DNA of 64,000 nucleotides from positions 1-64,000 of the forward strand of contig NW_026516765.1 of NCBI RefSeq assembly GCF_025766255.1. The letters run 5' to 3'. The notes beneath the pieces were generated by a model. That model searched no databases and had not been told where the DNA came from. It saw nothing but the letters and a program-made list of their open reading frames with translations. The stretch comes from Zychaea mexicana. Lineage: Eukaryota; Mucoromycota; Mucoromycetes; Mucorales; Lichtheimiaceae. Made by a program: the position numbers and the translations under genes. Position 1 is the first letter of the stretch. Each line of letters begins with the position of its first letter. Of this stretch, positions 54,916 to 59,919 are shown piece after piece.

Positions 54916-57194
54916 ATGTTTAAAGAAAAAGGGAAAGGTAATCATATCAGTGGCGAACCAGATGACTCCATCAAGGCTTCCGAAGAAAATGAACAAGCAA
55001 AAATCACAGTAAGTACTTTAAAAAGCATTTTTAAACAGATATCTGATATCTAAGAATAACACAACACGTTATTGCTCTGCCCAGGATGGCAAAAGACACA
55101 TTGGATCTTTAGTAACGAGGAGGGAAATGGTCGAAAATCACGATGAAGACGGAACGTATCATCAACGCCACAATCATGACGAAGATTTAAACAACAAGAC
55201 AGAGGAGGGCGGTGAAGGCTCGACAATCGTTGTCGATTGCGGCTATGCGTGGTTTGTTGCAGCTGGAGCAACAGCAGCATGCTTTTTTGCATCTTTTTAC
55301 CCTGTCTGGTAAAATACACTTTTTTGAACGCGTTTATAATTACGATCGACAGCGATGGCGATAATTCTAATTGAACGCATATTTTATGTAATTTTTCATA
55401 CATTCATACAGGGGTAAGGTTTGCCTCTGACTTTTACGCCGCCATAGCAGATATAGCATTGCTCCTAAATACTCACCTATCGCTACGCAAACTTATTTTT
55501 GCTGGTTACTTACTATTGTAGGTGTCATCCAAGATATGTACATACGAGATCATATCTTTTCTGGTCCAAATCTTACGACACAAATGACATTGGTCGGCAG
55601 CATATCTCAAGGAATTGTAAACTTTGGCGTTCTTATCAGCAGCCTACTATTAGACCGCTTAGGGGGCACTAGGAATTTGTGTATACTCGGATCGTGCTTC
55701 ATTTTTGGTGGATTTATGCTGACATCAATATCGACTTCGGTAAGAGCAGATAACCACCCGCCACAAACAGGAAAAAATGGTGACAGCGATTGATGACGTA
55801 TGTAGTGATGGAAAGGATATGTATAAGTGTTAACAAAATGTATTATTTTGACGTAGGCAGATATGGCAAATATATCTGTCATTGAGCATTGGTGCAAGTT
55901 TTGGCGCAGCGCTTCTATTTGGGGTTAGTGAAAAAGAAGCCTTTTTATTATCTCTTGTTGCTTATGGTATTATGCATTACTCCTTGCCCGTACATATTGA
56001 TTTAATTTCGATTAAAATAATTGAAAAAAAACAGACAGCCACCCTTTGTATTCCACATTGGTTTGAAAAGAAACGTGCAACAGCTTTCGGGATACAATCG
56101 AGTGCCACCCAATTTTCTAGTCTAGTACTTCCTTTCATTGTCACGCGTGTGTATGACACTCTCGGTCATCAATGGTATGAGAGAAACCGTTGGATGATAA
56201 TACTGTTGTATGATGGGTCGCTAAAAGAAGACATTGTAATCCTTTCAGGGTATTCCGCGTTCTCGCTTTCATATCTGTAGCTATCAACGCCATAGCTATC
56301 GCCTTTATGAAAGATCAACCTACCAGAATGGAGAACAGTAGCGGAGAGCAAATATCCGGCAGCAACAAGAACAAGACAATGAGTTTTGATCTGAGTATCT
56401 TTAAGATTACTGACATGCTAATTTGGTTACCAACTTATCCAATGTCAATGAGTTCGCGATTTATCGTGCTTATGTTCTTACCGAACTATGGAACATACAT
56501 TGGCCTTTCCGGAACTAAAGTAGCTGCAGTTACTGCAATTGCATCGGCAATGAGTCTATTTGGTCGAATATCTCTTGGGTAATCCACCAAAAGATACATA
56601 TGCACAGTACATGTATTACAAAACATTGAATTTACAAGACGGAAATTAAATAACCTTACGTCGTGTATTCTGTAGTATAATGGCAGATCGCTTTGGTTAT
56701 TTGAACATATACACTCTGAGTAATGCAATGACTACGTTGACCATTCTCACCATGTGGATGTTTGCGAATAATTTTGCAAGTCTCATCGGGTTTTCTGTGG
56801 TATATGGATTCTTTTGTGCAACTCAAGCTACAGTTCGTACGTTATCTAACTGTGATTTTTGTTTTCAATTACATGCATGGTGGGGAGGAAAAAGAATTTT
56901 TTTATCGCTCACGTTCTCTCTGTCTTATTATTATTTTTGTATATAGATCCAGCGGTAACTGCCCGTATAGTTGGTATGGAGAGGTATCCAGCCGCTATGA
57001 GCTTTAGTATGGTCCTGAGCATTCTAGTTATCCCACTTTCGCTTATTGCCAACAGCTTGTCCGCTGGTATTGGAACTGCCAAGGATCCATTTTTAATTTA
57101 CAAGCTTAGTGGTGGAGCACTCAGTGGTCTCTGTACAATACTAGGGCTGGTCACGAAGTTTCGATTGGATCGGAATTTGTTTGCAAACGTGTAG
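54916..57194 (+). CDS. MFS transporter, monocarboxylate porter-like (copy 1)
   Basis: Exons 54916-55008, 55085-55308, 55412-55413 (2 nt), 55522-55739, 55861-55923, 56035-56174, 56249-56578, 56676-56836 and 56947-57194 give 492 aa, all in phase. A hydrophilic, acidic N-terminus leads to VVDCGYAWFVAAGA, the DGGYGWxV signature region of fungal monocarboxylate-type MFS proteins. Twelve membrane segments follow, including SQGIVNFGVLISSLLLDRLGG, IWQIYLSLSIGASFGAALLFG and ARIVGMERYPAAMSF. The conserved W-G-V-I-Q-D after helix 1 can only be built with the 2-nt exon. The substrate is unknown; many relatives are plasma-membrane transporters. It is convergent with its paralog. Confidence 0.9.
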
Positions 57195-57649: not shown

Positions 57650-59919
57650 TTAAATATTTGCTAAAAAGTTACGTTTTAACCGAAACTTAAGAAATAGAGA
57701 GAGGAGAGCGCAGGCCGCGTATCCTACTCCAGCAATAATCTTACAGTAAAGAAAGGGATGTTGAGTATTGTTGGCCTCAACAACACTTGCAATGAGTGGA
57801 CCTAGTACAAAGAATATGAATGCAAGCATACTGATAGAAACAGCGGCAGGATATTTCTCCATTGAGCCGAGGATGTTGATGACCACAGGTGCAGCTAATC
57901 ATTCACATGTAACAGTTGGGTGAGTTTCCATATGTAAAAAATGGCTTGGATATACAACACAGAAAACCTGCTCCAATTTACTTTGTCACAAAATAACACC
58001 GTTTTTTACAGGGGCTGTAAACCTTACCTAGTGTAAAATAACTTCCATATACCAGACCATTGACAACAGCGAATAGCAATAACACCCCAAAGTTGTTGGC
58101 AAACATCCAAATAGCAAAGATCGAAATTATGCAGATAAACATGCACATAATATACGTATTTAGATGCCCCAGTTTATCGCCACATATACTAATATATTCA
58201 ACAAAAGCACATTTTATATGAATAATGGTGAGTATTGAACTGAAATACATAATTTCCGTATTCTCTCATTTCCTCACTTACCCAGCTGCAATTCTGCCAA
58301 CAATGCCAGCTGCCGACAAGACTGATATGGTAGCTGCACCTTGTGTTTCAGTCAGTCCAATGAATGTCGCATAAGCTACAAGGGCAGATTAACTGACTTA
58401 GTGATTGATTGCTACTGACTATGAGCATTGGTTCTTCTATATGTGCACTACCGTGTTCTGAAAGTACTTGAATAAAAGAGAGCCATTTGACTCAAGTATA
58501 CTTACAAGGAATAAATACAAAGACAGTATAAGAAGCGTACATTTGAATTGGACCCACGACCACCCAAATCATCATGTTCAGATCTTTCAGTATAGGAACA
58601 AGACTGACAAATTGCTTTTTTACGCTTACTGGCGGTGACTGGACCCTTTCTCTAATAAGCACAACACTTGAGAGGATCAAAGCAAACGATATAAATCCAA
58701 GTACACGGTATGTCCTTGTTCACACAGAATAGTCACCAAAGATTTAAATTTAGTACCTTCCATCATCGACGACGGCTAAATTAATTTTCTGCGTCTACTT
58801 TTGATACATACCAAGGTGCGCCGAGCGCATTGTTTATGGCAACCATGATATGCGGCACAATAAGAGCAAAAATTGCAAAGGTCGATGCTTGTACACCAAA
58901 GGCAGTTGCCCGGTACTTGACAAACCATTGTGGTAAAATCCTCAATCCAACCTATGTAGTGGTTATAGAACAGTCAGCACCCAACATGTTGTAGTGCTCT
59001 AGGATCTTTAGTTAAAGTAAATGTGACGACTTACAGTACTGAAACACGCGATTCCGAGTCCTGTACACACGCTTACTGACAAATAAAGTTGCCAAATCTA
59101 CAAACACATTTGGGACACATGAATTAATCGTTTTTTTCCACTCTATATAGCAACGACATGCTGATGAGGTACAACTTACAGAAGTAGCTAAGCTAGCCAA
59201 CATCAAGCCCGCAGTTGTCAGTATGAGCCCAGTATAAAGCACAGGCCTGAAACCGACACGGGAATAGATTAAGTTTATGAAAAACACGCATGATAGTACC
59301 ATTGCTTGGAAGAGAGCGCCGACAAATGTCAGTTTGATATTAACGTCCGTGTCCGATGCAAATGTACTACTTCGCTTATAATGGTCTTGCATAATGCCTA
59401 AAATACGAATTAAAGTTTCAGTTTAATCAGTTCTTTTTTTGGAACACTGAACCATCTGTTGCTGCTGCTCGTGTTCGAAAATGCCAGACAAAGAAAATAC
59501 GTCTCTCTCTTGTACGTGCACGTACCCCTTTTGGTAAATAAACGTGTTGGTACAATCCAGTGTTGATTACACTACTTTTGACTACCATCATCAGAGTAAA
59601 AAAGCAACACTACGTACCAGCAATTTGGTAAGCCGCAAAGCAATGATATAAGAAAACTTCCTATTCCAACTGTCCAGGCCTGCTTTCCGTCAGTTGGCAA
59701 CTCTTGTTTTTTGGGCTGGCCACCATCGTTAATATTTGATTCTTCCATGTGTGCATCGTAAGGCCCATCTCTTTTCTCGTCCGATTGGTCGCAGAGCGCT
59801 GGCATTGGTTTTTCATTTGACTCTTGACGACCCGACGGACAAGTAGCAGGAAGATATCCTTCGTCTACTGAGGCCTTTGCCGTTTCATTGTTGCTCTTTT
59901 GATAGTTGGATTTCAGCAT
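57650..59919 (-). CDS. MFS transporter, monocarboxylate porter-like (copy 2)
   Basis: Minus strand, exons 59919-59618, 59527-59526 (2 nt), 59397-59180, 59097-59035, 58951-58812, 58714-58506, 58375-58282, 58188-58028 and 57894-57650, 477 aa. Exon lengths repeat those of copy 1 (218, 63, 140, then 161 nt), apart from one extra intron dividing copy 1's 330-nt exon. Sequence shows AWTVGIGSFLISLLCGLPNCW, then GIMQDHYKRSS, IWQLYLSVSVCTG, TYRVLGFISFALILSSVVLI, TFIGLTETQGAATISVLSAAGIVGRI and MEKYPAAVSISML. It has lost the full DGGYGW signature (PTDGKQAWTVG here). The acceptor before the 2-nt exon (accaaaag) is weaker than in copy 1. Function as for copy 1. Confidence 0.9.

Follow-up and report, generated by a model that had tools for sequence, protein, structure and literature searches.

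A candidate two-nucleotide exon in a monocarboxylate-transporter-like gene family of Zychaea mexicana

We found that, in a window of 64,000 nucleotides from Zychaea mexicana (Mucorales, Lichtheimiaceae), the dinucleotide GG at positions 55412-55413 is best explained by the joint evidence as a two-nucleotide exon, probably constitutive, of a monocarboxylate-transporter-like gene that we call copy 1, a reading to which we assign a probability of about 0.93 from genomic sequence and public proteins. GG would finish a Trp codon (TG|G) and open a Gly codon (G|GT), with an intron on either side. This exon is very probably real and old and not a chance match.

Gene structure and best joining of copy 1

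In the hand model of copy 1, on the plus strand, exon 1 lies at 54916..55008, and no part of the model is less certain than its start codon at 54916; spliced alignments with the public proteins P0002 and P0003 place the exon 1 region differently. Exon 2 (55085..55308) ends in phase 2 (..GTC TG), and both alignments give its end at 55308, with different starts (55199 and 55113). Intron A (55309..55411, 103 nt, gtaaaa..atacag) sits at position +2 relative to the Trp codon, and intron B (55414..55521, 108 nt, gtaagg..ttgtag) at position +4, as against a median of 87 nt for the 107 other modelled introns of genes with such a microexon. Exon 4 (55522..55739) begins GT GTC ATC CAA GAT and is given by the spliced alignment with P0002 and by P0001, the public protein of copy 1. 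Spliced alignment and P0001 likewise yield exons 5 and 6 (55861-55927 and 56039-56174) and exons 7 to 9 (56249-56578, 56676-56836 and 56947-57194, the last including the stop). An exon 5 end at TTTGGG|gttagt, in the 55924-56038 region, would also keep the frame open, but P0001 and the unaided spliced alignment choose otherwise and place the exon 5/6 junction at TTTGGGGTTA|gtgaaa and acagacag|CC. The complete model is one open protein of 492 aa with canonical introns.

The copy 1 product is a predicted major facilitator superfamily, monocarboxylate-transporter-like (MCT-like) protein. Its model matches Pfam MFS_1 (E 6.8e-22) and, in PDB, MCT10 (1.7e-14), MCT8 (4.5e-11) and MCT2 (9.3e-11), among others; both searches used a model with the earlier exon 5/6 boundary. 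From the family alignment and what we take to be the MCT topology, we place the Trp-Gly pair close to where the first membrane helix ends.

An earlier note on this DNA had argued that exactly two bases are required at this place to encode the conserved W-G-V-I-Q-D, and the frame agrees. With GG it runs TGG GGT GTC ATC CAA GAT; joining 55308 directly to 55522 shifts it and leads to a stop, and retention of intron A stops it at once (TGG TAA). It is therefore very improbable that 55309-55521 is one 213-nt intron from which GG is discarded, whether it is excised in one piece or through recursive (zero-length) or stwintron-type splicing. The outer donor and acceptor of this stretch are both canonical, and AG|GG|GT does look like a ratchet site whose acceptor and donor stand two nucleotides apart. 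Against this, besides the shifted frame, a frame gap of exactly 2 nt is common to 19 modelled genes in which the exons on either side are conserved, and the public proteins P0015 and P0075 contain Trp-Gly, contrary to a loss of GG. The recursive splicing that the earlier note had offered as an alternative mechanism fails, then, if nothing is kept, but as a stepwise removal of two introns around AG|GG|GT it is possible and would come close to the mechanism proposed below.

We wrote a spliced aligner without a minimum exon length and used P0002 (Fennellomyces sp. T-0311) and P0003 (Circinella umbellata) as queries. With P0002 the aligner returned exon 55412-55413 exactly, followed by 55522. With P0003, which is without the next protein stretch, GG was again chosen, but it was joined to 55612. 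Forbidding the GG acceptor lowered the score from 971 to 946 for P0002 and from 933 to 922 for P0003. We also enumerated the in-frame, stop-free paths that can be built with one or two introns, each 45 nt or longer and with a GT or GC donor and an AG acceptor. Among the 220 paths obtained for the copy 1 region, nine of which have one intron, the GG path ranks top, so that the exon proposed in the earlier note stands at its exact coordinates. On P0002 alone it scored 247 against 234 for the next best path, and on P0002 together with the model of L011, another gene of the family, it scored 335 against 309 and 306; only the P0002 score is independent of the GG reading, because the L011 model already contains Trp-Gly.

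The second and third of these paths, in frame and free of stops, represent a longer exon between the introns, of which GG would be just the beginning or no part at all, for example 55412-55422 (11 nt, with a GC donor) or the 8-nt 55448-55455. We regard such an exon as more improbable still than the discarding of GG. These paths insert or replace residues at a conserved place, they score 13 and 22 points lower on P0002 and 26 and 29 points lower on both queries, the first needs a GC donor, and longer exons are not seen in the other 18 genes with the microexon.

GG is the sole AG-NN-GT with at least 45-nt spacing in the 213-nt stretch of copy 1, and AG-GG-GT at least 45 nt from both ends arose in 0.4% of dinucleotide shuffles of that stretch. 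Across the 19 microexon genes the frequency per gene was 0 to 2.8% (mean 0.8%), figures that are not to be multiplied because the genes form one family and are not independent. Decayed-looking copies of the family do exist in the genome (L046, L084 and L090), but decay of copy 1, with GG a chance AG-NN-GT in a broken region, has hardly any probability, given this shuffle frequency and given that the rest of the gene encodes an open protein of 492 aa, has canonical introns and is matched over 386 aa by a public protein.

The Trp-Gly junction in the Zychaea family

Genome searches led to 38 modelled places, of which we kept 32 genes after leaving out L028, L034 and L037, where no Trp-Gly region was recovered, and the decayed-looking L046, L084 and L090. 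The family may be larger, because the searches score best candidates only and three C90 places lie outside the models. Both introns with GG between them are found in 19 of the 32 kept genes (copy 1, L003-L011, L017, L026, L031, L033, L036, L045, L051, L059 and L081), the presence of GG being part of the definition of this class. All 19 have complete GT and AG sites on either side of GG, and all 19 models contain Trp-Gly. An intron at +2 only occurs in five genes (L012, L013, L014, L016 and L047), an intron at +4 only in one (L029), an intron at -1 in three (L015, L020 and L024), and four genes (L018, L021, L025 and L062) have no intron at this place. The same aligner placed a 2-nt exon at the Trp-Gly place in none of the 13 other kept genes; since it placed none in genes that do not need one, it does not force such exons. 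In the N terminus, where conservation is poor, it did propose some very small and doubtful exons, of 0 nt in L031 and L037 and of 4 nt in L021. The GG microexon has three features of an ultra-short coding microexon (at most 15 nt), as it is bounded by splice sites, is required for frame and motif and is conserved in relatives; the public proteins P0015 and P0075 indirectly suggest that it would also be included in mature mRNA.

A second microexon gene, copy 2 (model L007), lies in the window on the minus strand. The end part of the exon before its microexon is at 59618..59700 (..TGC TG|gtacgt), with an uncertain 5' extent. Intron A (59617-59528, 90 nt), the microexon GG (59526..59527, caaaag|GG|gtacgt) and intron B (59525-59398, 128 nt) follow, and the next exon (59180..59397) begins GC ATT ATG CAA GAC. 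Copy 2 (59180-59407, minus) has a close duplicate, L008, just past the end of the window (C5:66984-67211). The two are 7,804 bp apart on the same strand and their microexon-flanking introns are identical; when the 3.2-kb loci are aligned end to end, 384 of 3124 aligned bases differ, plus gaps.

We compared eight retrieved public Zychaea proteins at the junction. P0015, assigned to the L011 locus by the length of its contig, is identical to the L011 query over all 418 of its residues, including Trp-Gly (SSWGVMQN). The L011 genomic sequence reads CTG|gtaggc..161 nt..caatag|GG|gtatgt..93 nt..ttgtag|GTGTC, and because of this sequence the public model must use a 2-nt exon. The microexon reading of the earlier note is accordingly backed by this complete public protein and by 18 further modelled genes, beyond copy 1 itself. 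P0075, assigned in the same way to the L051 locus, is also continuous through the junction (AWGVMQD), and in P0057, from L045, the junction residues are absent. P0001 is 100% identical to the copy 1 model over 386 aa, but it begins LTIV|GVIQD, reading from inside intron B into exon 4; the expectation in the earlier note that gene predictors would truncate or shift the gene was borne out here, and the missed two-letter exon is the likely reason for the truncation.

Among the public proteins of microexon genes, two of four are therefore broken (P0001 and P0057) and two are whole (P0015 and P0075). The proteins of single-intron genes are broken in three of four cases (P0079 of L013, P0043 of L014 and P0106 of L029), with P0020 of L016 whole. 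We had considered that every broken public protein marks a microexon, and we dropped this idea because the retrieved single-intron siblings break at the same place; for the same reason, a broken annotation alone does not show a microexon.

Splicing, intron turnover and known ultra-short exons

Two nucleotides leave no room for U1 on donor B together with the 3'-splice-site factors on acceptor A, and we infer from this that introns A and B would be removed one after the other, by intron definition. If intron A left first, ..TGGG|gtaagg would serve as the donor of intron B; the reverse order would be equally allowed. An exon of this size is not recognisable across the exon and must rely on the ordered removal of its introns. 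Skipping of GG or retention of intron A would lead to a premature stop, so that the product would be all or nothing, and since a product without GG is frame-shifted, inclusion is probably constitutive. A regulatory use of GG inclusion is possible.

Introns A and B look like ordinary U2-type GT-AG introns. GTRAG donors occur in 4 of 19 introns at A and 4 of 19 at B, against 49 of the 107 other introns of microexon genes, and because this motif is rarer there the donors at A and B look weaker. A pyrimidine precedes the acceptor AG in 16 of 19 introns A, 17 of 19 introns B and 92 of 107 other introns, and branch-point-like CTRAY motifs are found in 8 of 19, 8 of 19 and 39 of 107, respectively. 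When the 38 flanking introns were compared by blastn (word 7, E 1e-3), the only matches were the L007/L008 pairs and one 28-nt stretch shared by L045 and L051. As the flanking introns otherwise cannot be aligned between genes, AG|GG|GT has been retained while the sequence around it turned over.

In a tree of the 32 proteins, the 19 microexon genes, four genes with the +2 intron only and L029 fall in one clade of 24 (support 100/99), no member of which lacks both introns. L029, with the +4 intron only, is nested among the +2-only genes L014, L016 and L013 (supports 91/81 to 97/93). The arrangement would be older than much of the family expansion, with one or the other intron possibly lost again in some copies. 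The +2 intron is also present in L012, which belongs to another subfamily, a distribution suggesting that it predates the +4 intron. Three groupings were not rejected by AU tests: a clade of the three +2-only genes that leaves out L029 (p 0.15), a single clade of all 19 microexon genes (p 0.10), and a clade uniting the +2-only genes, L047 included, with L029 (p 0.075). The +2-only set with L047 but not L029 was rejected as a clade (p 0.01). We tentatively consider, at somewhat less than even odds, that the GG state is an intermediate of apparent intron sliding, in which the +2 intron came first, the +4 intron was gained with GG kept between them, and either was later lost. GG would be kept in such a course because the Trp-Gly codons (TGG GGT) supply it. 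If this is true, an apparent 2-nt move of an intron would be a gain and a loss by way of an ultra-short exon.

In the other subfamily an intron lies at +2 (L012) or at -1 (L015, L020 and L024) of the same Trp codon, and putative exons of 14-28 nt are modelled nearby in these four genes. Introns appear to cluster at the Trp-Gly codon pair, as at a hot spot. The decayed-looking copies, with broken frames or stops, lie at C24:290416 (L046), C23:84394 (L084) and C263:169752 (L090).

Ultra-short exons as such are already known. In Fusarium CYP621A, 18 SRA reads and a relative without introns support a 1-nt exon; the authors call it the first of a fungal gene, and for Arabidopsis, Drosophila and humans they cite exons of 2-5 bp (PMC12940212). 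As described there, the Fusarium exon resembles the Zychaea one in being fungal and too small to be recognised by exon definition (AG|G|GT in Fusarium, AG|GG|GT in Zychaea), in being needed for the frame and a conserved motif, and in having been found through a failed gene assembly; it is conserved among the orthologues of one gene, whereas the Zychaea exon has 2 nt and is shared by 19 paralogues of one genome (PMC12940212). The Fusarium exon has read support, the candidate Zychaea exon has that of genomic sequence and homologous proteins, and the single-intron siblings present in the Zychaea family have no counterpart in what we could consult of the description of CYP621A (PMC12940212).

In plants, APC11 and VPS55 carry conserved 1-nt exons supported by RT-PCR and RNA-seq (PMC8831610). 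According to that account, they share with the Zychaea case an old ultra-short coding exon that is missing from annotation and alters the predicted N terminus when missed, as well as copies without flanking introns; the plant copies are intronless or have the 1 nt inside a larger exon, whereas 0 of 24 members of the Zychaea clade are without both introns (PMC8831610).

Stwintrons of Pezizomycotina, as outlined in PMC6616335, are fungal as well and likewise consist of two GT-AG introns that leave in a set order, and excision of the first makes the donor context of the second complete. They differ in that the inner intron interrupts a splice signal of the outer one, with no nucleotide retained between the two (PMC6616335). 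In the Zychaea arrangement neither intron lacks any of its GT or AG ends, and two nucleotides would stay between them. By donor and acceptor the Zychaea arrangement is not a stwintron, as introns A and B each have their own GT and AG, and it is not zero-length-exon recursive splicing, as the copy 1 frame needs GG and the 2-nt gap recurs in 18 models. The family resembles intron sliding, in the sense discussed in PMC7730772, in that homologous genes have introns 2 nt apart (+2 in L013, L014, L016 and L047; +4 in L029). Unlike in true sliding, Zychaea siblings carry both introns at once, which would point to gain and loss by way of the microexon state, and the mammalian study in question itself doubts intron sliding (PMC7730772).

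Title and abstract searches of the literature on 2-nt or 2-bp exons and on fungal or Mucoromycota microexons did not find the present case, which is no proof of novelty. What is unusual is the number of family members that share a 2-nt exon in one genome, together with siblings that have either intron alone. With nineteen natural versions and the single-intron siblings as controls, the order of splicing and its sequence needs become testable, and the siblings with introns at +2, at +4 and at both places bear on whether introns slide.

The junction in proteins of other Mucorales

In the first protein search, one of four proteins from other Lichtheimiaceae relatives was whole at the junction (P0002), and the other three (P0003, P0004 and P0005) were broken or started later. 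A protein search with a 129-aa piece gave no matches. With the L011 query 299 proteins matched, and we studied the best 120 of these 299, among which P0015 is the query's own protein. Trp-Gly with the conserved next residues is found in 30 of the 120, Trp-Cys in 2 and neither in 88. An automatic "full" label given to 37 of the 120 proved too loose, since 7 of these 37 are without an intact junction, and we used 30 of 120. Among these best 120 of 299, 23 of the 88 proteins without an intact junction start exactly at the Met that follows it; the Met-start rule itself counts 24, from which P0097 was removed as a false match.

Leaving out P0015 from the best 120 of 299, we found an alignment break or a start at most 4 residues from the Trp-Gly junction in 80 of 119 proteins. 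For the six exon junctions further downstream in L011 the corresponding counts are 3, 5, 0, 5, 0 and 1, a comparison confounded by the fact that the Trp-Gly junction is the most N-terminal of those compared and is often followed by Met. The sole higher peak of breaks (up to 109) lies at about residues 263-280, off the L011 exon junctions, and we take it to be a variable central loop. Among Mucorales, the public proteins of this family are often cut or shifted at the Trp-Gly junction.

A class of 29 proteins has the upstream part with no Trp in its last four residues, and here the residue before the next exon is Gly in 15, Ser in 11, Arg in 2 and Cys in 1. This pattern is expected of a downstream exon that starts with GT or GC after one borrowed base (NGT/NGC); the Gly cases are uninformative, because the native protein has Gly there too. 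The class, defined by a coarse text rule, includes P0090 and P0091, which have Trp-Gly followed by extra residues, as well as P0108, P0097 and P0117; the upstream part of P0097 and P0117 is apparently in the wrong frame. In three proteins Trp-Gly is followed by what appears to be a translated intron B donor: CWG-KVLLF in P0091 of Apophysomyces, SWG-NFLFL in P0090 of Sporodiniella and SWG-KRINQ in P0017 of Circinella. The apparent readthrough is compatible with GG|GTAAG or GG|GTAAY, and P0046 of Fennellomyces (WG-TR) is ambiguous in this respect. Together, these observations suggest, with fair though not decisive strength, that the GG microexon occurs across Mucorales.

P0039 and P0045, from a source labelled lgn, have an intact junction. 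They are 462 and 476 residues long, their contigs measure no more than 1,556 and 1,632 bases, and these may be cDNA-like. Five other proteins from a source with this label (P0058, P0076, P0078, P0098 and P0121) start exactly at the Met after the junction. The longest contig is 1,442 bases for P0076 and 2,022 bases for P0098, and contigs of this type, if they are transcripts, may carry mis-spliced forms.
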